In this document: positions 243 to 11,914 of the stretch, one piece after another | How the letters are laid out: every line of letters starts with the position of its first letter | Position numbering within the stretch: the first letter of the stretch is position 1 | Source: Burkholderiales bacterium | Lineage (GTDB): Bacteria; Pseudomonadota; Gammaproteobacteria; Burkholderiales; Burkholderiaceae_C | NCBI GenBank assembly: GCA_947451035.1 | Contig: CANFXR010000020.1 | Location: 1-34,744 of the forward strand | Reading direction: 5' to 3' | DNA: 34,744 nucleotides | The notes under the pieces: generated by a model | The model's database searches: none | What the model was told of the DNA's origin: nothing | Seen by the model: only the letters and a program-made list of their open reading frames with translations | Program-made: the position numbers and the translations under genes

Positions 243-1823
243 TCACAGCGTGTCGAGGTCGACGAGCAGCGCGGTGGCCGCCACGCGCCGGCGCTCGCGC
301 TCGGCCGCGTCGAGCCGGGTCACGTTGCGCGCCATCAGTGCCGTGCGCGGGTTGGCCGCGAGTTCGACCTCGTGGCGGTCAAGAAAATTCCAGTACAGCA
401 CCGTGTACGGGCACAGCGGCTTGCCCGTGCCTTGCGCCGCTTTAGCATCGGGCGCGTAAGCGCAGCCGCCGCAGTGGTTGCTCATGCGCTGGATGTAAGC
501 GCCCGAGGCGACATACGGCTTGCTGGTGAAGCGCCCGCCGTCGGCGTACAGCGCCATGCCGGCCACGTTGGGCAGCTCGGCCCACTCCACCGCGTCGACA
601 TAGACCGCGAGGTACCAGGCCGCCACCTGCTTGGGATCGATCTCGGCCAGCAGGGCAAACAGCCCGGTCACCATCAGCCGCTGGATGTGGTGCGCGTAGC
701 CGTACTGCAGCGTTTGCTCGATGGCGTCGCGCGCGCAGGCCATGCGGGTGTCGCCGCTCCAGAACCAGCGCGGCAGCGCGCGATGGTGTCCGAAGTGGTT
801 GGCCTCAGCCATCCCGGGCATGTCCAGCCAGTAGACGCCGCGGATGAACTCGCGCCAGCCCAGGATCTGCCGGATGAAGCCCTCGACGCCGGCGAGCGGC
901 GCTCGCCCGGCGCGATAGGCCTGCTCGGCCGCGGCGATCACCTCGCGCGGGTCGAGCAGATGCAAATTCAAGCTGCTGGCCAGCAGCGAGTGCCAGCCGA
1001 AAGGCGTGCCCGCCCACATGGCGTCCTGGTAATCACCAAAGTTCACCAGCCGGGTCTCGATGAACGCGTCCAGCGCACGCAGCGCCTGCTCGCGCGTGAC
1101 CGGCCACACGAAGTGCTCGAGCGAGCCGGGGTGATCGGCAAACAGCCGGGCCACATCGGCCAGCGCCGAGCGGGTCAGCGCGTCGGGCTCGAAAAACGCC
1201 GCTGGCGGGATCAGCCCGGGCCCGCCCTTCGGGTAACCCTTGCGGTTGTCGGCGTCGTAGTTCCACTGCCCGCCCTCGGGCTGGTCGGTGTCGGTGGCGT
1301 CGAGCAGCACCCGGTGACGCCTGCGCATGTCGCGGTAGAAGTACTCCATGCGCAAGCTGGACTTTTCGGTCTTGCGGTACTTGCCCGCCCAGCGCGCGAA
1401 GTCGGCGCGCGAGCACAGGAAATGCGGATCCGCGATCAACCGCAGCGGCACCCCAGCCTCACCGGCCGCCGCGGTGATGTCTTGCTGCAGTCGCCACTCG
1501 CCGGGCTCCAGCAGGCACAGGCCCTCAGGCCGCAGCCGTTGCAACTGCGCGGCCAGACGGCCGACCAGCGTGGGCTCGTCGCTGTCTTCCAGGCCGATGT
1601 ACTCGACGACCAGGCCGCGCTCGCGCAGCGCATCACGACAGTGGCGCATCGCCGCGATGAACAACGCAATGCGCGCCTTGTGGCTCCACACCCAGCGCGC
1701 CTCGCCGGGCGCTTCGATCATCAACACGCGGTCGTGCGCCGGGTCGAGCCCCGCGAGGGCCGGACTGTCCAATCCGAGCTGGTCGCCCAGCACCAGCACG
1801 AGCTGGCGGATCGCCTGGCTCAT
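243..1823 (-). CDS. Iron-sulfur cryptochrome/photolyase (FeS-BCP, PhrB-like)
   Basis: About 526 residues, starting at an ATG that overlaps the stop of the upstream gene (ATGA). The N-terminal Rossmann-like domain begins with LVLVLGDQL, typical of the deoxyribodipyrimidine photolyase-related family; the C-terminal half is the FAD-binding helical domain. Four cysteines fit the [4Fe-4S] ligands of this class: C363 in a helix, C451 and C454 as CGGC, and C471 before PYTVLYWNFL. The spacing of the first two (88 residues) equals that I recall for Agrobacterium PhrB. Family members repair (6-4) photoproducts in visible light using FAD and often a ribolumazine antenna. Repair of (6-4) lesions rather than pure signalling is inferred. 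Position downstream of a B12-type photoreceptor regulator suggests light induction. Confidence 0.88.
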   Translation of the reverse strand: MSQAIRQLVLVLGDQLGLDSPALAGLDPAHDRVLMIEAPGEARWVWSHKARIALFIAAMRHCRDALRERGLVVEYIGLEDSDEPTLVGRLAAQLQRLRPEGLCLLEPGEWRLQQDITAAAGEAGVPLRLIADPHFLCSRADFARWAGKYRKTEKSSLRMEYFYRDMRRRHRVLLDATDTDQPEGGQWNYDADNRKGYPKGGPGLIPPAAFFEPDALTRSALADVARLFADHPGSLEHFVWPVTREQALRALDAFIETRLVNFGDYQDAMWAGTPFGWHSLLASSLNLHLLDPREVIAAAEQAYRAGRAPLAGVEGFIRQILGWREFIRGVYWLDMPGMAEANHFGHHRALPRWFWSGDTRMACARDAIEQTLQYGYAHHIQRLMVTGLFALLAEIDPKQVAAWYLAVYVDAVEWAELPNVAGMALYADGGRFTSKPYVASGAYIQRMSNHCGGCAYAPDAKAAQGTGKPLCPYTVLYWNFLDRHEVELAANPRTALMARNVTRLDAAERERRRVAATALLVDLDTL

Positions 1824-1996
1824 GGACGGGGCCGGGTTCGCTGCGCTTCGCCCCGGCAACGCTCGCTGCAGAACTTCACGTCAGCCCAGTTCTTCGCCCA
1901 CACGCGTCGCCAGGTCATCGGCCGCGCGCACTGCACGCAGGGCTTTTGCGGCAGCGCGGCCTTGTTGCCCCGGAACCCCGGGGTGGCGCGCGTCAT
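1820..1996 (-). CDS. DUF2256 zinc-ribbon-like small protein
   Basis: A 58-residue protein. It carries CVQC (C20, C23), a basic aromatic core TWRRVWAKNW, and CSERC (C43, C47), the pattern of the DUF2256 family. The four cysteines could bind zinc. Its start overlaps the regulator stop and its stop overlaps the photolyase start, both as ATGA, so the three genes are very likely translationally coupled. The family has no established biochemical function that I know of; it is often found next to photolyase/cryptochrome genes, suggesting a helper role such as cofactor handling, which is inference. Confidence 0.88.
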   Translation of the reverse strand: MTRATPGFRGNKAALPQKPCVQCARPMTWRRVWAKNWADVKFCSERCRGEAQRTRPRP

Positions 1997-2931
1997 GCGC
2001 TGCCGTGCCGCCAGCGCTCGAGCTCGGTGCGGATGTCGCTCAACAAGCCCAACGCGAGCACGCCTTCGACGCTGCGTCGATGCAGCACCGGCGCAGCGCC
2101 TCCCACCCACAGCTCGACCTCGGGCGAGAGCTTGCTGCGCAGCTCCTGGAGACCGTCGACCACCTGATTGGGGTTCATGCAGCCGGTGAAGCCCAGCGCC
2201 ACGATGTCGCACCGGTAGGCGCTGGCCGCCAGCGAGATGTCCCACACGGGCGTTTGCGCGCCGAGCGACACGCAACGCGCGCCCTCGAGCGCGAACAGGC
2301 ATTCAGCGAGCAGCAGGCCCAGACCATGCGGCTCGCCGGGAAAGGTCGTCAGCAAGACTCGCGGGCGGTCACAGCCAGCCGCTTCGGGAATGGTGTTCAA
2401 CGCCAGCCGCAAGATCGCTTGCAGGCATTCGATGTAGGCGTGCTCTTCAAAGATTTCCAGCTGGCCGCGCATCCACGCATCACCCACCATGGTGTTGAGC
2501 GGCAGCACCACCTCCATGATGAAACGCGACACGCCCAGCCTCACCTGCGTGAGCATCAGCTGGCGACGCAGCGCGTCGAGATCGTGCGACCTCACCAACG
2601 CCAGATAGGGTTTGAGGTCGGGTGGGGCGAGGCCCTTGGCCACCGACTGCGGCGAATCGAGGGTGCTCGCGCTGAGGTGCTGCAACTCGTCCATCGGCAT
2701 CGGCACCAGCCGCCCGGGGCGATGCCCGTGGTCCATCAGGCGCTTGACGATGCGCAGTTTCTCGACCTGTTCGAGCGGGTAGGCCCGCTCACCGGCCCCG
2801 TCGCGCTCGGGCTGCGGGAAGCCGTAGCGGCGCTCCCAGATGCGCAAGGCGTCTTTCGTCAGGCCCGTGTCGCGCTCGACGGCGGCGATGGACAGGGTCA
2901 GTGTTCTCAGCTCACGAGCCGGCTTGTTCAT
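1993..2931 (-). CDS. MerR-family regulator with cobalamin-binding light-sensor domain (CarH/LitR type)
   Basis: About 312 residues from ATG 2931 (a GTG at 2934 is one codon earlier). The N-terminal MerR helix-turn-helix spans roughly residues 12-80 (VERDTGLTKDALRIWERRYG). A helical B12-cap region follows, with the W-x9-EH motif (W154, E164, H165), then a Rossmann-type cobalamin domain with E-x-H-x-x-G (E201, H203, G206). In CarH these elements cradle adenosylcobalamin, and light breaks its Co-C bond, dissolving the DNA-bound tetramer and relieving repression. All key positions are visible, so it is probably a functional photoreceptor repressor. It heads the DUF2256-photolyase operon and is divergent from the lipid/redox block, so it probably controls both and itself. 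Numbering counts the GTG as residue 1. Confidence 0.9.
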   Translation of the reverse strand: MNKPARELRTLTLSIAAVERDTGLTKDALRIWERRYGFPQPERDGAGERAYPLEQVEKLRIVKRLMDHGHRPGRLVPMPMDELQHLSASTLDSPQSVAKGLAPPDLKPYLALVRSHDLDALRRQLMLTQVRLGVSRFIMEVVLPLNTMVGDAWMRGQLEIFEEHAYIECLQAILRLALNTIPEAAGCDRPRVLLTTFPGEPHGLGLLLAECLFALEGARCVSLGAQTPVWDISLAASAYRCDIVALGFTGCMNPNQVVDGLQELRSKLSPEVELWVGGAAPVLHRRSVEGVLALGLLSDIRTELERWRHGSA

Positions 2932-3062
2932 CACGGGACCTGGTCTGGACGTTGGTTGGGCACAGAAAACCCGAGGTTTTTTCGGGCCTCAAGTGTTTGG
3001 ACGCCTGATTCTGTATCAATATCGGAGGTTTGAAGATGATTTGAGTACGACAAGGGCTCGAC
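2932..3062. promoter_or_regulatory. Divergent control region between the regulator and glutathione peroxidase
   Basis: This 131-bp gap must carry the promoters of both transcription units. Two inverted repeats are visible: CCCGA (2970-2974) with TCGGG (2982-2986), and TGAT (3006-3009) with ATCA (3015-3018), the latter with additional symmetric C and G inside (TGATTCTGTATCA). A TTGGAC hexamer at 2997-3002 could be a -35 towards the peroxidase, but no good -10 follows at standard spacing. Towards the regulator, TTGAGG and TTTTCT lie 17 bp apart. The operator assignment is inference. Confidence 0.45.
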
Positions 3063-3647
3063 ATGAAGATCCAATGGCTGTTTTTGCGCATCGCTCGCCG
3101 CAGCGCCCTGTGGCTGGCGCTGCTCGTGGGCGCAGCGGGCGCACAGGCCGCCGGCTGCCCCGCGCTGCTCGACCGCGAGATGCCCCGGCTGCAAGACGAA
3201 AAGCCGCAGTCGCTGTGCCAGTACGCCGGCAAGGTGGTCGTGGTGGTCAACACCGCAAGCTTTTGCGGCTTTACCCCGCAGTACAAGGGGCTTGAGTCGC
3301 TCTACGCGCGCTACCGCGATCGCGGCCTGGTCGTGCTCGGATTTCCGTCGAACGACTTCGGCTCGCAAGAGCCGGGCAGCAATCGCGAGATCGCGACCTT
3401 TTGCGAGGGCACCTTCGGCGTCAAGTTCCCTATGTTCACCAAGACGCGGGTCGCGGCGCGCGGCGGCCCGGGCGTCAACCCGCTGTTCGTCGATCTCGAG
3501 CGCATCACCGGTTCATCGCCGGGCTGGAACTTCCACAAGTACGTGATCGCCCGCAACGGCGCCACGGTGGAAAGCTTCAGCAGCTTCACCGGTCCCGATT
3601 CGTCGTCGTTCGTGAAGACGATCGAAAAACTGCTGGCCGCGCCGTGA
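3063..3647 (+). CDS. Exported glutathione peroxidase family protein
   Basis: A 194-residue thiol peroxidase. The first 30 residues look like a signal peptide (basic start, hydrophobic stretch to about residue 25, AQA end), so it should act in the periplasm. The thioredoxin-fold body carries the peroxidatic motif NTASFCGFTPQY with C68 (cysteine, not selenocysteine), the second motif FPSNDFGSQEPG with Q102, and WNF (W155, N156) of the catalytic tetrad. C114 lies where thioredoxin-dependent family members have the resolving cysteine, so reduction by a thioredoxin-like partner is more likely than by glutathione. It is first in the divergent block, with AAGGG six bases before the ATG. It would detoxify lipid or other hydroperoxides. 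Confidence 0.88.
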   Translation: MKIQWLFLRIARRSALWLALLVGAAGAQAAGCPALLDREMPRLQDEKPQSLCQYAGKVVVVVNTASFCGFTPQYKGLESLYARYRDRGLVVLGFPSNDFGSQEPGSNREIATFCEGTFGVKFPMFTKTRVAARGGPGVNPLFVDLERITGSSPGWNFHKYVIARNGATVESFSSFTGPDSSSFVKTIEKLLAAP

Positions 3648-3706
3648 TGCCGACATTCGCAGCCATCCCGTCCAACGCGCTGCGGCGCAAGGCGGCGCTC
3701 GCATGA
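3647..3706 (+). other. Possible 19-codon linking open reading frame
   Basis: Between the peroxidase and the next gene there are 55 bp. An ATG overlaps the peroxidase stop (TGATG, 3645-3649), and the frame runs 19 codons (MPTFAAIPSNALRRKAALA) to a TGA overlapping the next start (ATGA, 3703-3706). Such a mini-frame could relay translating ribosomes between neighbours. No strong ribosome-binding site is seen and the frame may be chance in GC-rich DNA. Confidence 0.2.
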
Positions 3707-5067
3707 GCCATTCAGCGCGTCGGGTGGCGGTCATCGGCTCGGGCATCGCGGGCCTGTCGGTGGCGCATGCGCTTGCGCCCGAAGCGCGGGTCACGCTGTT
3801 CGAGGCGGGCGACTACTTCGGCGGCCACACGCACACCGTCGACGTGACGCTCGAGGGCCGCACGCACGGCGTGGACACCGGTTTTCTGGTGTTCAACGAG
3901 CGCACCTACCCGAAGCTGATCCGGCTGTTTGGCGAGTTGCAGGTGCCCACGGCGCTGTCGGACATGTCGTTTTCGGTGCAGGTGCCCGACATCGGCCTCG
4001 AGTGGAGCGGCAGCAGCCTCAACAGCCTGTTCGCGCAGCGCCGCAACCTGGTGCGCCCGGCCTTCTGGCAGATGCTCGCCGACGTGGTGCGCTTCAACCG
4101 GCTGGCCACGGCGCTGGCCGAGGCCGGCGTGGGCCTGGCCGTGCAGGCCGATGCCGCCGGCGCGCAGTCGATCGGCGACTTCCTCGAATCGAACCGCTTC
4201 AGCGCGGCCTTTCGCGACTGGTATTTCCTGCCCATGATCGGCTGCATCTGGTCGTGCCCGACCGATCAGATGCTGCGCTTTCCGATCGCCACCATGATCC
4301 GGTTCTGCCACAACCACGGCCTGATCCAGATCACCCACCGGCCGCGCTGGTTCACCGTGCGCGGCGGGGCCCGCGGCTACGTCGAGCGCATGCTGCAACG
4401 CATCCCCGACGCGCGGCTGAACACGCCGGTGCGCAGCGTGCGCCGGCTGCGCGAATCGGGCCAGGTGCACATCGGCACCGATGACGGCACCCAGATCTTT
4501 GACGACGTGGTGCTGGCCTGCCACAGCGACCAGGCGCTGGCGCTGCTCGGCGATGCGTCGCCCGCCGAGCGCGAGGTGCTGGGCGCCATCCGCTACCACC
4601 GCAACCGCGCGGTGCTGCACACCGACACCGCCGTGCTGCCGCGCAATCCGGTGGCCTGGGCGGCCTGGAACTACGAGCGCTCGCGCGGCGACTCGCGCGA
4701 ACAGACCGCGGTGTGCCTGCACTACCTGATCAACCGGCTGCAGCCGCTGCCGTTTCAAACGCCGGTGGTGGTGTCGCTCAACCCGACGACCGAGCCGCGG
4801 CCCGACACCATCCACGGCGAGTACGACTACGCGCACCCGGTGTTCGATGCGGCCGCGATCGCCGCGCAGCAGCACGTGCCGTCGCTGCAAGGCCAGGCGA
4901 ACACCTGGTTTTGCGGCGCCTGGACGCGCTACGGCTTCCACGAGGACGGGCTGTCCTCGGGCCTGGCCGTGGCCGAGGGATGGCGCGAGCGCTGGGCGCA
5001 GGGCGGCGTGCCGGGCCCGGCGGGCACTCAGCCGGCTGCCACGGCACAAACGCGGGTGAGCGCATGA
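3703..5067 (+). CDS. FAD-dependent amine-oxidase-like oxidoreductase (COG2907 type)
   Basis: A 454-residue flavoprotein. The N-terminus has the dinucleotide motif VAVIGSGIAGLSVAHAL (glycines 12, 14, 17), an acidic E34 for the FAD ribose and the following GGHTHTV segment of the amine-oxidase/phytoene-desaturase superfamily. Near the C-terminus CGAWTRYGFHEDGLSSG is the second FAD-contacting motif. No signal peptide is visible, so it is cytoplasmic. It is followed by DUF1365 and the Cfa-type methyltransferase, an order seen in many proteobacterial stress loci, so its substrate is probably an acyl chain or lipid; desaturation or oxidation is inferred. The start overlaps the preceding mini-frame, the stop overlaps DUF1365 (ATGA). 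The last 25 residues are low-complexity and probably dispensable. Confidence 0.85.
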   Translation: MSHSARRVAVIGSGIAGLSVAHALAPEARVTLFEAGDYFGGHTHTVDVTLEGRTHGVDTGFLVFNERTYPKLIRLFGELQVPTALSDMSFSVQVPDIGLEWSGSSLNSLFAQRRNLVRPAFWQMLADVVRFNRLATALAEAGVGLAVQADAAGAQSIGDFLESNRFSAAFRDWYFLPMIGCIWSCPTDQMLRFPIATMIRFCHNHGLIQITHRPRWFTVRGGARGYVERMLQRIPDARLNTPVRSVRRLRESGQVHIGTDDGTQIFDDVVLACHSDQALALLGDASPAEREVLGAIRYHRNRAVLHTDTAVLPRNPVAWAAWNYERSRGDSREQTAVCLHYLINRLQPLPFQTPVVVSLNPTTEPRPDTIHGEYDYAHPVFDAAAIAAQQHVPSLQGQANTWFCGAWTRYGFHEDGLSSGLAVAEGWRERWAQGGVPGPAGTQPAATAQTRVSA

Positions 5068-5906
5068 CCGCCTGGTGGTCGTCCCCCACGGAGGGTCATG
5101 CGCCGCTGATCGGCTTTGGCGAGGTGCGCCACACCCGGCTGCGCCCGGCGCGCAATCACTTCGTGTACCCGACGTACTTCCTGATGCTGCCCATGCGTGC
5201 GCTGCGCGCGGCACCCCACGCAGCACTGGCGCGCAACCGCTTCGCGCTGATCAGCTTTGCCGACCGCGACCACGGCGATGGCCGCGCCGACAGTCTGGCC
5301 TGGCTCGATGAGCTGCTGCTGCGCGAAGGCATCGATGACACCGCCGGCGAGGTCTGGCTGCACTGCTACCCGCGGGTGCTGGGCCACACCTTCAAGCCGG
5401 TCAGCTTCTGGTACTGCCACCGCAGCGACGGCACGCTGAGCGCGGTGCTGGTGGAGGTCAACAACACCTTCGGCGAACGTCACTGCTACTTGCTGCGCGG
5501 GCCGCAGCTGGCCTATGGCGGCGTGCAGCGAGCGAGCAAGGTGTTTCACGTGTCGCCGTTTTGCGAGGCCTCGGGCGAGTACCTTTTTCGCTTCATGCAC
5601 AGCGAGGCTGCCCCCGCCGACGCGAAGCACGAGGGCAGCGTGGGCCGCACCGTGGCGCGCATCGACCATGCCGATGCGCTCGGCGCGCTGCTGCAAACCA
5701 GCGTGAGCGGCAGCCTCGTGCCGCTGTCGGCGCGCACGCTGCGGCAAGCCTTTTTCGGCATGCCGCTGATGACGCTGGGCGTGCTCGCACGCATCCACTG
5801 GCAGGCCTTGCGGCTGGTCGTCAAGCGCGTGCCTTTCTTTCGCAAGCCGCAGCCACCCGCGGAGTTCGTGACGCGCGGGCAACCCGCGGGCACCTCCGGT
5901 TATTGA
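5064..5906 (+). CDS. DUF1365 family protein
   Basis: About 280 residues, starting at the ATG that overlaps the preceding stop. Family hallmarks are visible: an early GEVRHTRLRPARNHFVYP segment, the central FKPVSFWYCHRSDGTL, the VEVNNTFGERHCYLL motif and KVFHVSPF. No enzyme activity is established for DUF1365 that I know of. It is consistently found between an amine-oxidase-like flavoprotein and a cyclopropane-fatty-acid synthase, as here, which ties it to fatty-acid or phospholipid modification. No signal peptide is evident. Confidence 0.88.
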   Translation: MTAWWSSPTEGHAPLIGFGEVRHTRLRPARNHFVYPTYFLMLPMRALRAAPHAALARNRFALISFADRDHGDGRADSLAWLDELLLREGIDDTAGEVWLHCYPRVLGHTFKPVSFWYCHRSDGTLSAVLVEVNNTFGERHCYLLRGPQLAYGGVQRASKVFHVSPFCEASGEYLFRFMHSEAAPADAKHEGSVGRTVARIDHADALGALLQTSVSGSLVPLSARTLRQAFFGMPLMTLGVLARIHWQALRLVVKRVPFFRKPQPPAEFVTRGQPAGTSGY

Positions 5907-5928
5907 CCCCCTAACCAAATTGATCGAG

Positions 5929-7158
5929 ATGAGCTCTTCTGCACTGACCTCACACACGCTGCCAACGTCGGCGCCGGCGGCCGCTCGCGCGGTGTTTCGC
6001 ATCATGAAGAACCTGCAGCACGGGGCACTCGACGTGCAACTGCCCGATGGCAGCGTGATGCACTTTGGCAATGCGAGCGACGGCGCGCCGCGCGCGGCGA
6101 TGCGGCTGCTCAACTGGAATGTGTGCGGCGCGACACTGCGCTCGGGCGACATCGGCTTCGCCGAAGCGTTCATTGCGGGCGACTGGAGCTCGCCCGATCC
6201 GACCGCGCTGATCAAGCTGATGCTGGCCAACGCCAGCGCCGTCGAATCGCTGGTCTACGGCACCTGGTGGGGCGCGCTGCTGTACCGCGTGAAGCACTGG
6301 CTCAACCGCAACTCGCGCGCCGGCAGCAAGAAGAACATCCACGCCCACTACGACCTGGGCAACGAGTTCTACCGGTTGTGGCTAGACCCGACGATGAACT
6401 ACTCGAGCGCGTGGTTCGAGGGCGAGCGCAGCCGCCCGATGGCCGATGCGCAGTGGGCCAAGGTGCGCCGCGCGCTGGTCGAGTGCGAGGTCAAGGCGGG
6501 TGATCGGGTGCTCGAGATCGGCTGCGGCTGGGGCGCGCTGGCCGAGTGCACGGCGCGCGAATTCAGCGCCACCGTCACCGGCGTCACGCTGTCGACCGAG
6601 CAGTTGGCCTGGGCCCGCGAGCGCCTGGCTGCGGCGGGGCTGCCGGGCGAGCTGCGGCTGCAGGACTACCGCGACCTGAAGGTCGGCCCGGGCGAGGGCC
6701 CGTTCGATGCCGTCGCCTCGATCGAGATGTTCGAAGCGGTCGGCCGCGAGTACTGGCCGAGCTTCTTTCAGACGCTGAAGGCGCAACTCAAGGCCGGTGG
6801 CAAGGCCTGCGTGCAAAGCATCGTGATCCGTGACGACATGTTCGAGCGCTACGTCAACTCGACCGACTTCATCCAGCAGTACATCTTCCCCGGCGGGCTG
6901 CTGCCCAGTCCGAGCGAGTTTCGCAAGGCGGCGCAAGCGGCCGGATTGCGCGTGGTCAACGAACTGGCCTTCGGGCTGGATTACGCCGAGACGCTGAGCC
7001 GCTGGCGCGAACGCTTCCTGAGCCAGGACGGCCCGGTGCGCCAGCTGGGTTTCGACACCCGCTTCATGCGCATCTGGGAGTTCTATCTGGCCTATTGCGA
7101 AGCCGCCTTCGCGATGGGCAACACTGACGTCATGCAGTTCACCTTGCAACATGACTGA
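5929..7158 (+). CDS. cfa: Cyclopropane-fatty-acid-phospholipid synthase family methyltransferase
   Basis: About 409 residues from ATG 5929; a TTG nine bases upstream is an alternative, and neither has a strong ribosome-binding site. The family pattern is clear: HAHYDLGNEFYRLWLDP (about residues 138-154), SAM-binding motif I LEIGCGWG (about 195-202), IEMFEAVG and the late YIFPGGLLPS motif. Members transfer a methylene or methyl group from S-adenosylmethionine to a double bond of a phospholipid acyl chain at the inner face of the membrane. Products can be cyclopropane, 10-methyl or, in Rhodobacter, furan-fatty-acid precursors. The flavoprotein neighbours make a methylated or further oxidised product possible; this is inference. 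Its stop overlaps the next start by eight bases. Confidence 0.9.
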   Translation: MSSSALTSHTLPTSAPAAARAVFRIMKNLQHGALDVQLPDGSVMHFGNASDGAPRAAMRLLNWNVCGATLRSGDIGFAEAFIAGDWSSPDPTALIKLMLANASAVESLVYGTWWGALLYRVKHWLNRNSRAGSKKNIHAHYDLGNEFYRLWLDPTMNYSSAWFEGERSRPMADAQWAKVRRALVECEVKAGDRVLEIGCGWGALAECTAREFSATVTGVTLSTEQLAWARERLAAAGLPGELRLQDYRDLKVGPGEGPFDAVASIEMFEAVGREYWPSFFQTLKAQLKAGGKACVQSIVIRDDMFERYVNSTDFIQQYIFPGGLLPSPSEFRKAAQAAGLRVVNELAFGLDYAETLSRWRERFLSQDGPVRQLGFDTRFMRIWEFYLAYCEAAFAMGNTDVMQFTLQHD

Positions 7159-7753
7159 GCGGGCCGCCGCGTCACGCCGCGGCGTGCTGGGGTTGCTGGC
7201 CTCACCGCTGGTGTGCAGCGCTTTCCCGCGCGCCACGGCTGCACCCGCATCGCCCGCCGCAAGCGCCATCGCGCCGCCGCCCGAGGTGCTGCATGAGTTG
7301 CCGGCGGCTCGCCTGTTCGGCAGCGGCCGGCTGCGCCGGTTCCTGTTCCATGTGTACGACGCCAGGCTGTGGACCGGCCCCGGTTTCGACGTGGCCCGTT
7401 GGTCGATGGAGCCGCTGGCGCTCGAGCTGGAATACGGCCGCACGCTGAACGGCCCGCTGATCGCCGAGCGCTCCATCGAGGAGATGCGCCGTGGCGCCGA
7501 GATCTCGCCCGCTCAGCAAGGCAGCTGGCTGGCGGCGATGCAACGCTCCTTTCCCGACGTGCATGAAGGCGACCGCATGACGGGCGTGCAGCTGCCGGGC
7601 TTGGCGACACGCATTTTCGTCAACGGCCGACTCACCGGCGAGATCCGCGACGCCGAGTTCACGCGGCTGTTCTTCGGCATCTGGCTGGCACCGCACACCT
7701 CGGAGCCGCGACTGCGCGCCGCGCTGCTGGCCGGCGCGCCGGGCGGCTCATGA
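7151..7753 (+). CDS. Exported chalcone-isomerase-like protein
   Basis: A 200-residue protein that starts inside the methyltransferase gene (ATGACTGA overlap). The N-terminus SRRGVLGLL followed by a hydrophobic stretch and an ATAAPAS end resembles a Tat or Sec signal peptide. The body shows the bacterial chalcone-isomerase-like pattern: GSGRLRRFLFHVYDARLW, LELEYGRTLNG, a GDRMTGVQLPG segment and a final FFGIWLAP. Plant relatives of this fold include non-catalytic fatty-acid-binding proteins, so a lipid-carrier role in the periplasm fits its neighbours, but catalysis on a small molecule cannot be excluded. No flavonoid pathway is implied. Confidence 0.78.
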   Translation: MTERAAASRRGVLGLLASPLVCSAFPRATAAPASPAASAIAPPPEVLHELPAARLFGSGRLRRFLFHVYDARLWTGPGFDVARWSMEPLALELEYGRTLNGPLIAERSIEEMRRGAEISPAQQGSWLAAMQRSFPDVHEGDRMTGVQLPGLATRIFVNGRLTGEIRDAEFTRLFFGIWLAPHTSEPRLRAALLAGAPGGS

Positions 7754-9078
7754 GCGAGCCGGCCAGCCTCACGGTGAGCGCGCCCGGTTCATCGGCCAAC
7801 GAGCACGGCGACCACCGCGTGATGGACGCGCTGGTGGGTTGGCGCGCCGGGCTGGGTTACGGCGCGCTCGGCTTGCCGCTCGCGTTCGTGGCGCTGCCTT
7901 TGTACGTGGTGCTGCCCAATCACTACGCCACGCATTTCGGCGTGCCGCTGGCGGCGCTGGGTGGGGTGCTGCTGGGCGCGCGCTTGCTCGATGCGGTGGC
8001 CGATCCGCTGATCGGCCGCGCGGCCGATGGCTGGCTGGCCGCCGGTGCGCAGCGCACCTGGTGGGCGATGGCGATGGCGGCCATGCTGCTGGCCGTCGGC
8101 TTTGCCGCGCTGTTCTTTCCGCAGGTGAGTGGCACGCCGGCGCTGCTGGCCTGGTGCGCCGGCACGCTGGCCGTGACTTACATGGGCTACAGCGTGGTGA
8201 CCGTGGCGCACCAGTCATGGGGCGCACGACTCGGCGGCGACGCGAGGCAGCAAGCGCGCATCGTCGCCTGGCGCGAGGGGATGGCGCTGGCCGGCGTGCT
8301 GATCGCCAGCGTGATGCCATCGCTGGCCGGGCTGCCGGTGACGACCGTCGTGTTCGTGGCGCTGCTGGTGGCCGGCATGCTGTGGCTGCGCACGGCCCCG
8401 CGGCCGGCGGCGTCCAGCGGCCCGCGCCTACACGTGTCGCTGGCGCTGCCGTTTGCCACGCCGGCGTTTCGCCGGCTGCTCGCGGTGTACCTGGTCAACG
8501 GCATCGCCAGCGCGGTGCCCGCCACGCTGGTGCTGTTTTTCATTCGCGACCGGCTGCAAACGCCCGCCTACGAAGCGCTGTTTCTGGCGAGCTACTTCGC
8601 GGTGGGGGCCATCTCGATCCCGCTGTGGGTGCGCGCGGTGCACCGCTTCGGGCTGGAGCGCGCGTGGCTGGCCAGCATGGGACTGGCGATCGCGGTGTTC
8701 GTGTGGGCCAGCGGACTGGGCGCGGGCGACGTGGTCGCTTTCACTGTCGTGTGCGCGCTCAGCGGACTCGGGCTCGGTGCCGACCTGACGCTGCCCAGCG
8801 CCATGCTGGCCGGCGTGATACAGCGTGCGGGCCACGGCGCGCAATCCGAGGGCGCCTACTTCGGCTGGTGGCATTTCGCGACCAAGCTCAACCTGGCGCT
8901 GGCCGCCGGCATCGCGCTGCCGGCGCTGTCGTGGTTTGGCTACGCGCCCGACAGCCGCAGCCCGCAAGCGCTCGCCGCGCTGACGGCCGCCTACTGTGTG
9001 CTGCCTTGCGTGTTGAAGCTCGCCGCCGCGGCGCTGCTGTACACACTGCTGATCCGACCTCTGCGGGAGAACCGATGA
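7750..9078 (+). CDS. MFS transporter, MelB/GPH type
   Basis: A 442-residue polytopic inner-membrane protein with about 12 hydrophobic segments. The N-terminal LVGWRAGLGYGALGLPLAF and GARLLDAVADPLIGRAADGW are typical of the glycoside-pentoside-hexuronide (MelB) branch of the major facilitator superfamily, including the conserved D-x-x-x-D-P element. Sugar symport is the classical function, but the same branch includes the vertebrate lysolipid transporter MFSD2A. In a fatty-acid gene block a lipid-like or lysolipid cargo is at least as plausible. Both ends overlap neighbours as ATGA, so it belongs to the operon. Confidence 0.8.
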   Translation: MSEPASLTVSAPGSSANEHGDHRVMDALVGWRAGLGYGALGLPLAFVALPLYVVLPNHYATHFGVPLAALGGVLLGARLLDAVADPLIGRAADGWLAAGAQRTWWAMAMAAMLLAVGFAALFFPQVSGTPALLAWCAGTLAVTYMGYSVVTVAHQSWGARLGGDARQQARIVAWREGMALAGVLIASVMPSLAGLPVTTVVFVALLVAGMLWLRTAPRPAASSGPRLHVSLALPFATPAFRRLLAVYLVNGIASAVPATLVLFFIRDRLQTPAYEALFLASYFAVGAISIPLWVRAVHRFGLERAWLASMGLAIAVFVWASGLGAGDVVAFTVVCALSGLGLGADLTLPSAMLAGVIQRAGHGAQSEGAYFGWWHFATKLNLALAAGIALPALSWFGYAPDSRSPQALAALTAAYCVLPCVLKLAAAALLYTLLIRPLRENR

Positions 9079-9608
9079 AACGACGCCTGATCCTGTGCCT
9101 GACCCTGGCCGCGAGTGCCTTGCTGGCGAGCTGCGCCTCGCCCACGGCCGCCGACTACGCCACCGAAAAACCGGTGCTTGACCTGAAGACCTACTTCAAC
9201 GGTGAGCTCACCGCGCACGGGCTGTTCACCGACCGCTCGGGCAAGGTGGTGCGGCGCTTCGTCGTCACCATGAAGTGCGCGTGGCAAGGCGGCGACGGCG
9301 TGCTTGACGAGCACTTCGTCTACAGCGATGGCGAGACGCAGCGCCGCGTGTGGCGGCTGCATCAGCTGCCCGACGGGCGCTACAGCGGCGCGGCCGACGA
9401 CGTGGTCGGCGCGGCGCAGGGAATGAGTGCAGGCAACGCCTTCCAGTGGGCGTACACGCTGCGACTGCCGGTCGACGGCAAGACCTACGAGGTGCAGTTC
9501 GACGACTGGATGTACCTGATCGACGAACACGTGATGCTCAACAAGGCGGTGATGAGCAAGTTCGGCGTGCGCCTGGGCGAAGTCACGCTGGCGTTCCACA
9601 AGCCATGA
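9075..9608 (+). CDS. DUF3833 family lipoprotein
   Basis: About 177 residues starting at an ATG overlapping the transporter stop. The signal peptide ends in a lipobox LLASC with C20 as the lipidated cysteine and Ala at +2, predicting release to the outer membrane. The mature part has LKTYFNGELTAHGLFTDRSG and FDDWMYLIDEHVMLNKA, which match the DUF3833 family. No function is established; members accompany Cfa, DUF1365 and SDR genes in many proteobacteria, so a role in envelope lipid handling is inferred from context. Confidence 0.85.
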   Translation: MKRRLILCLTLAASALLASCASPTAADYATEKPVLDLKTYFNGELTAHGLFTDRSGKVVRRFVVTMKCAWQGGDGVLDEHFVYSDGETQRRVWRLHQLPDGRYSGAADDVVGAAQGMSAGNAFQWAYTLRLPVDGKTYEVQFDDWMYLIDEHVMLNKAVMSKFGVRLGEVTLAFHKP

Positions 9609-9624
9609 GCACCCGGAGCTGGCC

Positions 9625-10398
9625 ATGCCACTGAACCCACGCATCACCGATTGGTCCGGCCGCGTCGTGTGGCTGGTGGGCGCGTCGAGCGGCATCGGCC
9701 TGGCGACCGCGCGGCGGCTGCATGAATGCGGCGCGACGGTGGTCGTGTCGGCGCGCAACGCAAGCGCGCTGGCGGCCTTCGAGGCTGCGCATCCGGGCAG
9801 CCTGGGAATCGCGCTCGACGCCACCGATCGCGAGGCGATGCGCGCGGCCGCCGCACAGATCGTGGGGCGCTGCGGTCGCATCGATCTGGCGCTGTACTGC
9901 GCCGGCTACTACCACCCGGTTCGCGCCACGGCCTTTGACCTCGACGAAATGCTGCGCCATGAGCAGGTCAACTACGTCGGCGCGCTGTACCTGCTCGACG
10001 CGGTGCTGCCGGTGCTGCTCGCCCAGCGCTCGGGGCACATCAGCCTGGTGTCGAGCGTGGCCGGCTACCGCGGGCTGCCCAACGCGCTGGCCTACGGGCC
10101 GACCAAGGCCGCGCTGATCAACCTGGCGCAAGCGCTCTACCTCGATGTGCAGCCGCTCGGGCTGGGCGTGTCGGTGATCAACCCGGGCTTCGTCGAAACG
10201 CCGCTGACTGCGCAAAACGAATTCAAGATGCCCGCGCTGATCTCGCCCGAGGAGGCCGCACGCGCGATGCTGGCCGGCTGGGCGGCGGGCGACTTCGAGA
10301 TCCACTTCCCGAAGCGCTTCACGCGGTTCCTGAAGCTGCTGGGCCTGCTGGGCGACGCTGCGTATTTCAAGATCATCCGCCGGGCCACCGGGCTGTAG
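9625..10398 (+). CDS. Short-chain dehydrogenase/reductase
   Basis: A 257-residue classical SDR. The cofactor motif GASSGIG is at residues 19-25, the NAG-like motif appears as CAG near 92, the catalytic serine lies in VSSVAG (about 143-144), and the active-site YGPTK gives Y157 and K161. The C-terminal region ends with a basic/hydrophobic stretch that may touch the membrane. NAD(P)-linked oxidoreduction of an alcohol or carbonyl, possibly on an acyl chain or aldehyde from lipid oxidation, is inferred from neighbours. A GGAG lies eight bases before the ATG. Confidence 0.85.
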   Translation: MPLNPRITDWSGRVVWLVGASSGIGLATARRLHECGATVVVSARNASALAAFEAAHPGSLGIALDATDREAMRAAAAQIVGRCGRIDLALYCAGYYHPVRATAFDLDEMLRHEQVNYVGALYLLDAVLPVLLAQRSGHISLVSSVAGYRGLPNALAYGPTKAALINLAQALYLDVQPLGLGVSVINPGFVETPLTAQNEFKMPALISPEEAARAMLAGWAAGDFEIHFPKRFTRFLKLLGLLGDAAYFKIIRRATGL

Positions 10399-10407
10399 GA
10401 GCGCGCC

Positions 10408-10860
10408 ATGACCGAACCCCACGCCCCGCGCTGCACCGACGCGCGCGTGGCCCGCATCGTCGAGGCCTTCGAGACGCTCACGCCGGCCGATGTGGCGCGG
10501 CTGGGCGATTTCTACGCCGCCGACGCCGTCTTCAAGGACCCGTTCAACGAGGTGCGCGGCATCAGCGACATCCAGCGCGTCTTCAGCCACATGTACGTGG
10601 CGCTCGACGCGCCGTACTTCGTCGTGAAGGACGTGCTGGTGCAAGGCGACCAGTGCTTCTTGAGCTGGGACTTCTGCTTTCGCTTCCGCCGCTTCAGCCG
10701 CGAGCTGCAAACCGTGCGCGGCGCGTCGCACCTGAAGCTCGGCGAGCACGGTCTGATCACGCTGCACCGCGACTACTGGGATGCCGCCGAGGAGTTGTAC
10801 GAAAAGCTGCCGGGCGTGGGTGTGCTGATGCGCTGGCTCAAGCGGCAGGCCAATTCTTGA
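10408..10860 (+). CDS. NTF2/SnoaL-like fold protein
   Basis: A 150-residue protein of the nuclear-transport-factor-2-like superfamily: LTPADVARLGDFYAADAVFKDPFNEVRG, a central strand region with VLVQGDQCFLSWDFCFRF, and HRDYWDAAEELYEKLPG. The fold forms a small cone-shaped pocket used by isomerases, cyclases and non-catalytic binders. Such a gene regularly sits beside the SDR in Cfa/DUF1365/DUF3833 loci, ten bases apart here. The substrate is unknown. Confidence 0.82.
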   Translation: MTEPHAPRCTDARVARIVEAFETLTPADVARLGDFYAADAVFKDPFNEVRGISDIQRVFSHMYVALDAPYFVVKDVLVQGDQCFLSWDFCFRFRRFSRELQTVRGASHLKLGEHGLITLHRDYWDAAEELYEKLPGVGVLMRWLKRQANS

Positions 10861-10906
10861 GGCCACCACCAACGCTGACGCAGCCTGCCCGCCAGGGTGC
10901 ACGGCG

Positions 10907-11914
10907 ATGAGCCGCATCGCCGTGATCGGCGCGGGCCTCGCCGGGCTCACCGTGGCGGCCGAATTGCAGGCGGCGGGCCACGCGGTGACGCTGTTCGAAA
11001 AGAGCCGTGGGCCCGGTGGGCGTTGCGCCACACGGCGCAGCGCGGCCGGACCCTTCGACCACGGCGCACCCGGCTTCGTGCCGAGCACGGCGGCGTTTGC
11101 TGCGCAGGTTCAGGACTGGCAGCGTGCCGGCTGGGTCGCCGCCGACCCGTCCGCGGGCACGGGTCAGGTGATCGGTGTGCCCTCGATGAACGCCTTGGCG
11201 CAGCAGCTGGCGAGCGGTCTGCGAACAGGCCTCGACCTGCGTGTGGAAACCCATGTCGCCGCGCTTGAGCCCGGGGCGCCGGCCGGCTGGCGGCTGCGGC
11301 TGCTCGACGGGCGGCTCGACGCGGGTCACTTCGACGCGGTGGCCGTCGCCGTGCCCGCCGAGCAGGCGGCTGCGCTGCTCGCGCCCGACGCCTCGCTGGC
11401 CGAGGCCATGCGGCTCACGCGCAGCGAACCATGCTGGACGGTGATGGTCGCTTGGTCAGACCCGTGGACCGCACCTGTCGCCGCGTGGGTGGCCACCGAT
11501 CACGCCAGCGTCCTCGCTCGGGTGCACCGCGACGATGCCCGCACCGGTCGACCCGCGCTGGCCGGCAGCGCCAGTCGCTGGGTGCTGCACGCCACGCCGC
11601 AGTGGAGCGCCGATCACCTCGACATGGCGCCCGCCGATGTCATAGCGACGCTGACGACCGCCTGGGCGAAGGCGCTGGGCGTGCGTCTGGCGCCGCCGGT
11701 GCATGCCGCGGCGCACTGCTGGCGCTATGCGCAGGTGCCCGACGCGAGAGCCGAGCCGTGCGGCTGGAACGAGTCGCTGCGCCTGGGCGCCTGTGGCGAT
11801 GCGTGGCATGCCGCGGGGGATGCTGCCGGATCGCAGCCCGGTGGCGTCGAGCGGGCCTGGCTGAGCGGCCGGGCGCTGGCGCGGCAGATCGCGCTGAGCG
11901 TGTCGCTCGCCTGA
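10907..11914 (+). CDS. Renalase-like FAD/NAD(P) oxidoreductase
   Basis: A 335-residue flavoprotein with IAVIGAGLAGLTVAAEL (GAGLAG at residues 8-13), E31, and FEKSRGPGGRCATRR (about 30-44), the signature of the renalase-like/COG3380 group. The C-terminus has GACGDAW and GVERAWLSGRALA, typical of the FAD-closing helix. Bacterial relatives I know of oxidise misreduced dihydronicotinamides, but the sequence alone does not settle the substrate. It is last in the block, 46 bases after the NTF2-like gene, and converges on a minus-strand MFS gene. Its link to the operon is probable, not certain. Confidence 0.8.
   Translation: MSRIAVIGAGLAGLTVAAELQAAGHAVTLFEKSRGPGGRCATRRSAAGPFDHGAPGFVPSTAAFAAQVQDWQRAGWVAADPSAGTGQVIGVPSMNALAQQLASGLRTGLDLRVETHVAALEPGAPAGWRLRLLDGRLDAGHFDAVAVAVPAEQAAALLAPDASLAEAMRLTRSEPCWTVMVAWSDPWTAPVAAWVATDHASVLARVHRDDARTGRPALAGSASRWVLHATPQWSADHLDMAPADVIATLTTAWAKALGVRLAPPVHAAAHCWRYAQVPDARAEPCGWNESLRLGACGDAWHAAGDAAGSQPGGVERAWLSGRALARQIALSVSLA

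Follow-up and report, generated by a model that had tools for sequence, protein, structure and literature searches.

The 34,744-nucleotide stretch analysed here, called the window throughout, is contig C20 of a 2.95-Mb Burkholderiales assembly (164 contigs, 87.85% complete), and it carries a divergent gene island built around litR, the gene for a CarH/LitR-type MerR-B12 regulator. Annotation by Pfam profile scan, with an open reading frame (ORF) scan that reached 24.6 kb of the window, placed litR, a DUF2256 gene and the photolyase-like gene phr on the minus strand as one compact unit, facing ten co-directional plus-strand genes at 3063-11914, several of which overlap by 4-8 bases. The original prediction, made from the letters alone, had named this divergent arrangement of regulator, DUF2256 and iron-sulphur (FeS) photolyase against ten other genes, and all of them were recovered in the Pfam scan:

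243..1859, minus strand, possible ATG at 1823: phr, FeS-type (6-4) photolyase-like protein of the PhrB/CryB family (DPRP; PF04244, 232 bits)
1820..1996, minus strand: DUF2256 small Cys-containing protein of 58 amino acids (PF10013, 65 bits)
1993..2934, minus strand, ATG at 2931: litR, CarH/LitR-type MerR-B12 regulator (MerR_1, B12-binding_2 and a weak B12-binding match)
3005..3025, strand not specified: conserved block CTGATTYTGTATCANTATCGG, near-invariant in the window and the relatives L174-L176
3040..3054, plus strand: putative proximal operator TTTGAGTACGACAAG, 8 bases 5' of the gpx ATG, at the homologous position
3063..3647, plus strand: gpx, glutathione peroxidase-like protein (PF00255, GSHPx)
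3703..5067, plus strand: ufaD-like flavoprotein (methyl-branched fatty acid desaturase; flavin amine-oxidase type; PF01593/PF13450), first in the D-O-M gene order
5064..5906, plus strand: ufaO (DUF1365), proposed fatty acyl monooxygenase (PF07103, 252 bits)
5920..7158, plus strand: ufaM-like S-adenosylmethionine methyltransferase of the cyclopropane fatty acid (CFA) family (CMAS; PF02353)
7151..7753, plus strand: chi, chalcone-isomerase-like protein (Chalcone_3; PF16036)
7750..9078, plus strand: MelB/GPH-type transporter (MFS_2; PF13347)
9075..9608, plus strand: DUF3833 protein (PF12915, 237 bits)
9625..10398, plus strand: short-chain dehydrogenase (SDR; PF00106)
10408..10860, plus strand: SnoaL/NTF2-like protein (PF12680)
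10907..11914, plus strand: second flavoprotein, optional in relatives (PF01593/PF13450)

The litR and DUF2256 genes overlap by 4 bases, and DUF2256 also overlaps the possible phr start at 1823. The closest solved chains of the photolyase are PhrB (5kcm/4dja, E ~1e-139) and cryptochrome B/CryB (3zxs), and its Cys 375, 463, 466 and 483, presumably the FeS cluster ligands, align with cysteines of PhrB; with this homology and the four cysteines it has the features of an FeS-BCP (6-4) photolyase. The gpx product is probably exported. Between 11.9 and 24.6 kb the window holds 12 further ORFs (ten transporter or household genes and two without a Pfam family), and a scan of the window for RNA families and tRNAs found none.

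Conservation was followed in two samples. A regulator search of 250 same-family genomes gave a match in 115, and 80 of these loci were fetched, mainly by score; the 35 left out were weaker, fragmentary or surplus, and some fetched loci end at contig ends. A class survey covered 276 genomes including the window's own, of which 81 carried DUF1365, and 60 of the loci were annotated. The genes ufaD, ufaO and ufaM all diverge from litR in 62 of the 80 family loci (each singly in 63), accompanied on the same side by the SDR in 58, DUF3833 in 56, the chalcone-isomerase-like gene in 55, the transporter in 54, the NTF2-like gene in 53 and gpx in 35. Of the loci with all three ufa hits, 55 of 57 in the class sample and 62 of 62 in the family sample have them in the order D-O-M on one strand within 3 kb. 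By contrast with these core genes, found in 53-63 of the 80 loci, a phr co-directional with litR lies within 3.5 kb in only seven and at any distance downstream in 11, and the second flavoprotein occurs in six. Judged from these neighbourhoods, the divergent block goes far beyond chance; the core genes form a conserved block, and the photolyase is an optional passenger, with phr, DUF2256 and the second flavoprotein as variable extras. A collection scan of titled relatives returned mostly uncultured Burkholderiales and Rubrivivax- and Rhizobacter-type genomes, the closest regulators being 94, 91 and 91% identical.

Profile searches against the Protein Data Bank matched the regulator to 3whp/5c8d (E ~5e-31), and its AlphaFold model (mean predicted confidence, pLDDT, 84) had CarH as the top structure match; the MerR helix-turn-helix (HTH), helix-bundle and Rossmann B12 domains are all present. 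The motifs GxxW, EH, GxxH and GxxxP define light-responsive cobalamin domains (PMC11796333). All four occur in the window regulator, and 79 of 81 regulators, the window one included, retain the equivalents of W131, E141, H142 and H177, the adenosylcobalamin (AdoCbl) signature. At position 132 the window regulator has Met, and His occurs in none of the 81, which mostly have Met, Ala, Leu, Val or Ser. The B12-binding Pfam match itself scores 22.1 bits, under Pfam's own cut-off of 32.1, and the match to the NCBIfam CarH equivalog stays below the cut-off of that model (116 vs 400 bits). The earlier description of the regulator as CarH/LitR-like with cobalamin motifs is thus borne out by the profile and model matches and the signature residues, with the B12-binding Pfam hit staying sub-cut-off; by its features the protein, a possible CarH in the strict sense, should work like one. 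In four regulators (G033, G241, G247 and G225) the match breaks at about residues 94/105 although the open frame runs on, pointing to an insertion between the HTH and B12 domains.

The output genes point to furan fatty acids. UfaM, UfaD and UfaO convert cis-vaccenate to a furan fatty acid, UfaO being a DUF1365 protein, and Rhodopseudomonas palustris has ufaD-O-M as RPA2571-2570-2569, the order found in the window (PMC7380195); in Halomonas the three ufa genes are consecutive, and ufaM in E. coli gave 11-methyl-octadec-12-enoate (PMC12089945). Homologues of all three stand together in the window, an assignment that rests on family, gene order and the text of these papers. Cyclopropane synthases bind bicarbonate through Glu239, His266 and Tyr317 (PMC11387697). 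Compared with E. coli CFA synthase, the window UfaM keeps Glu239 and Tyr317 and has Gln for His266, and the full bicarbonate ligand set is not present. It also has Ala for His240 and Ser for Cys139 in E. coli numbering. Gln replaces His266 in 151 of 152 UfaM proteins (family sample 97 of 97, class sample 54 of 55), the family count including some genomes twice (for example, L177/L031, L184/L032, L187/L033 and L191/L039 share contigs), and His266 is kept in all eight CFA-like paralogues and in the separate second CFA synthase of the window's own genome, which keeps the ligands.

These UfaM residues fit methyl transfer without ring closure. The original prediction had left the product as a methylated, cyclopropane or furan lipid; because Gln takes the place of the bicarbonate-binding His, its methylated and furan forms stand as the likelier ones and cyclopropane is disfavoured. 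UfaM does belong to the CFA family, and Halomonas ufaM over-expressed in E. coli also gave cyclic fatty acids (PMC12089945), but with Gln in every family UfaM, a separate CFA synthase that keeps its ligands and ufaD and ufaO adjacent, a cyclopropane rather than a furan or methyl-branched product appears very improbable. The Gln/His266 marker may serve to tell methyltransferases of the furan pathway apart from true cyclopropane synthases. An AlphaFold model of UfaO (pLDDT 82) matched no solved fold at E 0.001, so that this search gave no structural precedent for the oxygenase chemistry of UfaO.

Motif discovery from over-represented words in 66 intergenic regions yielded a 13-bp palindrome, TTGTC-N3-GACAA (consensus TTTGTCYWRGACAAA), with a centre of three bases in 51 of 52 occurrences. 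The resulting palindromic operator, TTGTCYWRGACAA, sits in relatives in the intergenic region from which litR and the facing genes diverge; the corresponding region of the window is 2935-3062. For the statistics, duplicates with identical intergenic sequence were removed, leaving 119 distinct regions. Of the 99 distinct regions that have ufaD or gpx as neighbour, 78 carry a site of at least 8 bits, where 20 shuffles gave a mean of 0.15. There are 62 site pairs; the spacing is exactly 63 bp in 22 of them and 62-64 bp in 34, and one shuffled set gave no pair. Because the motif had been discovered in the original regions, further loci were examined: beyond the discovery set the site is found in 20 of 33 loci (shuffled mean 0.1, 10 shuffles) and its strict form in eight. 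All three strict sites of the 60 class loci fall in the gap that separates litR from its divergent neighbour, in two other families (loci L134 and L161, one pair being 63 bp apart). The 80 family loci hold 48 strict sites, 41 of them in the litR intergenic region; the backward control gave 0 in both samples. In four genomes (G226, G235, G010 and G213) a second strict operator lies within the litR coding region, ~350-375 bp from the intergenic one.

In the window, the TTTGAGTACGACAAG site occupies the homologous proximal place, and the three closest relatives (L174, L175 and L176) keep TTTG(A/T)(G/A)TACGACAA there amid changing surroundings. In the whole assembly the degenerate pattern TTGWRTACRACAA has a single occurrence, as does its backward control, and the loose family operator TTGTCNNNGACAA was tried and rejected, its single place in the genome being on contig C142, outside the window, with one occurrence for the backward control as well. 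Across ten sister genomes, whose regulators are 75-78% identical, the best, proximal site scores from -5.6 to 9.1 bits. The conserved block CTGATTYTGTATCANTATCGG is perhaps the core promoter, a role that we infer, since the sigma-70 consensus is not matched. A terminator scan of the window intergenic region found none. On these sequence comparisons, the operator switch is weakly recognisable in this genome.

We consider it probable, at roughly 0.6, that an AdoCbl-competent LitR/CarH-type repressor controls both litR-DUF2256-phr and the photoprotective operon from one divergent region. That single intergenic region would serve litR-DUF2256-phr on one side and gpx, ufaD-O-M, chi, the transporter, DUF3833, SDR, NTF2-like and flavoprotein genes on the other. 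In the dark, the repressor, loaded with B12 in vivo, would occupy the palindromic operator, which in relatives is often doubled at a spacing of 63 bp, about six helical turns; in light the Co-C bond would break and the repressor would leave the DNA. Release must differ in detail from that in Thermus CarH, because His132 is present in none of the regulators examined. The derepressed cell would then make FeS photolyase, peroxidase and methylated or furan phospholipids ahead of or during the formation of oxidants by light, and these products would be protective. The genome also carries two reaction-centre genes (PF00124, PufL/M-type; contig C27:23652-25325, L241), and the organism is therefore probably an anoxygenic phototroph that makes bacteriochlorophyll and meets singlet oxygen.

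Several observations weigh against this reading. By the family matrix the operator of the window itself reaches -1.8 bits, within the range of shuffles (best of 40, 8.6), a distal copy is not recognisable at 2977..2991 (plus strand), 63 bp upstream, where many relatives carry it, and a sigma-70 promoter scan of the intergenic region found none. Seven of 65 family regions with the divergent neighbour lack a site of at least 8 bits; among the site-less loci, L031, L032, L049, L058 and L108 keep the B12 residues (5 of 63). The regulators of the other two, L083 and L089, have lost the equivalents of W131, E141-H142 and H177, and this parallel loss of operator and B12 residues is suggestive at most, because five B12-keeping regulators also lack the site. 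The Met at position 132 counts against light-driven release as well, given that the H132A mutant of Thermus CarH remains largely a tetramer under light (PMC10442372). The PF02572 and PF01923 adenosyltransferases were not found in the 88%-complete own genome; PF02572 is missing too from the two congeners, which are 99% and 95% complete, and a search of 20 relatives found it in only 10. AdoCbl uptake, assembly gaps, a different ligand or lost light sensing in the genus could explain the missing enzyme. Finally, in 25 relative genomes scanned with the strict pattern, most of them picked for an exact site beside litR, 30 of 47 occurrences lie beside litR, four inside it and 13 elsewhere (12 regions), and with seven occurrences of the backward control about half of these 13 may be chance.

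The absent adenosyltransferases, the missing His132 and the weak operator also suit the idea of a regulator that has the CarH fold without sensing light in this genus, responding instead to cobalamin supply or redox, acting as apo-protein, or decaying. We regard this as rather unlikely, if worth keeping in view: the AdoCbl signature is retained in the window regulator as in nearly all the others, CtMerR of Chloracidobacterium, with Arg at position 132, still photolyses AdoCbl (PMC11796333), the three closest relatives keep the proximal site while other letters vary, and the genome is incomplete. As to the palindrome, a putative LitR site, one copy in locus L252 lies upstream of a pair of genes for an extracytoplasmic function (ECF) sigma factor and ChrR, so that it might be a signal for another regulator of the same region, such as an ECF promoter element. 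This seems improbable to us, since the site is palindromic and its strict form is absent from all nine ChrR loci of the 60-locus class sample; its absence beside the two B12-residue-less regulators points the same way, though it is equally absent beside the five that kept them.

Under the B12-repressor reading, the off-locus sites are candidates for a wider regulon. Two lie before a photolyase gene, the nearer one at a distance of 298 bp from the gene start and flanked on its other side by a glutathione transferase, and one lies 46 bp before a lipocalin. The L252 site (L252:567-1986) precedes an ECF-ChrR pair whose ECF is 44% identical to the ChrR-adjacent ECF of L113. In three genera (L242, L247 and L249) sites lie 91, 99 and 112 bp (range 91-112) before 4HB chemoreceptors (methyl-accepting chemotaxis proteins), two of which are 87% identical. 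Six others (L243, L244, L245, L250, L251 and L253) have no clear target, about the number that the control predicts by chance. Because the target-less sites and the backward control fit chance, the photolyase, lipocalin, ECF-ChrR and chemoreceptor genes are leads and not established members. As side observations, the chemoreceptor-linked sites make light-regulated taxis possible, and the L252 site a possible cascade from a B12 light repressor to a singlet-oxygen sigma factor.

Related blocks run under other inputs. ChrR exceeded the cut-off in nine of the 276 class genomes, in all nine ~6 kb or less from DUF1365. Among the 60 class loci, nine carry ChrR, 20 a LitR-like gene within 10 kb (13 of them keeping the W131, E141, H142 and H177 equivalents), none both and 31 neither. 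The original prediction's statement that related sets occur under ECF-ChrR is supported by these neighbourhoods, and published cases agree, with class II LitR and LOV in Pseudomonas (PMC9758184) and MerR plus ChrR in Vibrio (PMC5241685). ChrR gave no match in the 88%-complete own genome, and an ECF-ChrR regulon is not indicated there. A gpx gene also adjoins ECF-ChrR in L113/L126. Beside the ufa genes of L114, L115 and L130 stand other B12-domain-like proteins, with Tyr as the H177 equivalent in L114 and L115.

Among known systems, class I CarH/LitR of Thermus thermophilus shares the MerR HTH, the two-part B12 domain and the W131/E141/H142/H177 equivalents, but the window regulator lacks His132 and its output is lipid and photolyase genes, whereas Thermus CarH controls carotenoid genes. 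Chloracidobacterium CtMerR and other SignatureFinder B12 photoreceptors share the AdoCbl signature with a non-His residue at 132, but no furan-lipid link is described in the available part of that report (PMC11796333). UfaD, UfaO and UfaM in a photooxidative context are likewise found in the R. sphaeroides RpoE-ChrR regulon and RSP1091-1087 operon and in R. palustris RPA2569-2571 (PMC7380195); control there is by an ECF sigma factor and ChrR, and in the window by a MerR-B12 protein. The Vibrio cholerae blue-light response has MerR (VCA0056) and ChrR (VC2301) inputs and induces photolyase and CFA-type genes (PMC5241685), but two regulators act jointly in one cell, and neither a B12 role nor an operator figures in the available description.

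A close case is class II LitR of Pseudomonas, P. putida PplR1 and P. mendocina PmlR1-PmlR2, a repressor beside phrB, SDR, FAD oxidoreductase and ufaM genes, in whose regulon phrB and ufaM are light-induced (PMC9758184). The island might therefore be this ordinary light-response cluster in another family, its content, with the hypothetical genes, being similar and conserved in Pseudomonas. Yet class II LitR is reported to lack a B12-binding domain, to work with a LOV protein as light sensor and to bind TGTACA-N12-TGTACA (PMC9758184), whereas the window combines the B12 signature, contrary to class II, with the TTGTCYWRGACAA type of operator in relatives; class II membership was rejected on that signature, and we find the equation with the Pseudomonas cluster unlikely. 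The class II operator was also tried and discarded as the window site, its best match having 4 of 12 mismatches; across 81 regions one match had one mismatch, three had two and the rest 3-5 (raw counts with no chance baseline).

Close published relatives thus exist in Pseudomonas class II LitR, Vibrio MerR with ChrR and Rhodobacter ChrR, and the idea is less new than the original prediction made it seem, the light induction of phrB and ufaM under class II LitR having already appeared in print (PMC9758184). What sets the island apart is a B12-competent regulator with its operator. No B12-regulated furan module is described in the titles and abstract beginnings searched, a search incomplete for LitR classes II and III; within that literature four points appear to be new, namely the operator, the pairing of its copies, the lack of His132 and the residue that marks UfaM. 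The claim that the same lipid output is here wired to a B12 light switch is partly supported, being upheld for the AdoCbl-signature CarH/LitR protein and the furan set, and weakened by the poor own operator and the adenosyltransferase not found: the island is real and conserved, its light wiring is plausible, and the quenching of oxidants by its lipid is a prediction.

More broadly, and tentatively, a distinct clade of His132-less B12 photoreceptor repressors, with its own palindrome and 63-bp pair, may run a feed-forward light regulon in Burkholderiaceae that spans furan lipids, photolyase, peroxidase, lipocalin, chemoreceptors and, in one lineage, ECF-ChrR. The missing His132 raises the direct question of how such repressors release DNA, and the explicit operator makes the B12 regulon searchable across many genomes. 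The comparison suggests one photoprotective output with interchangeable inputs, namely a B12 light repressor, a LOV-driven LitR and a singlet-oxygen ECF-ChrR. If the B12-repressor reading is true, then in phototrophs like this one light would turn on membrane protection before bacteriochlorophyll generates singlet oxygen.

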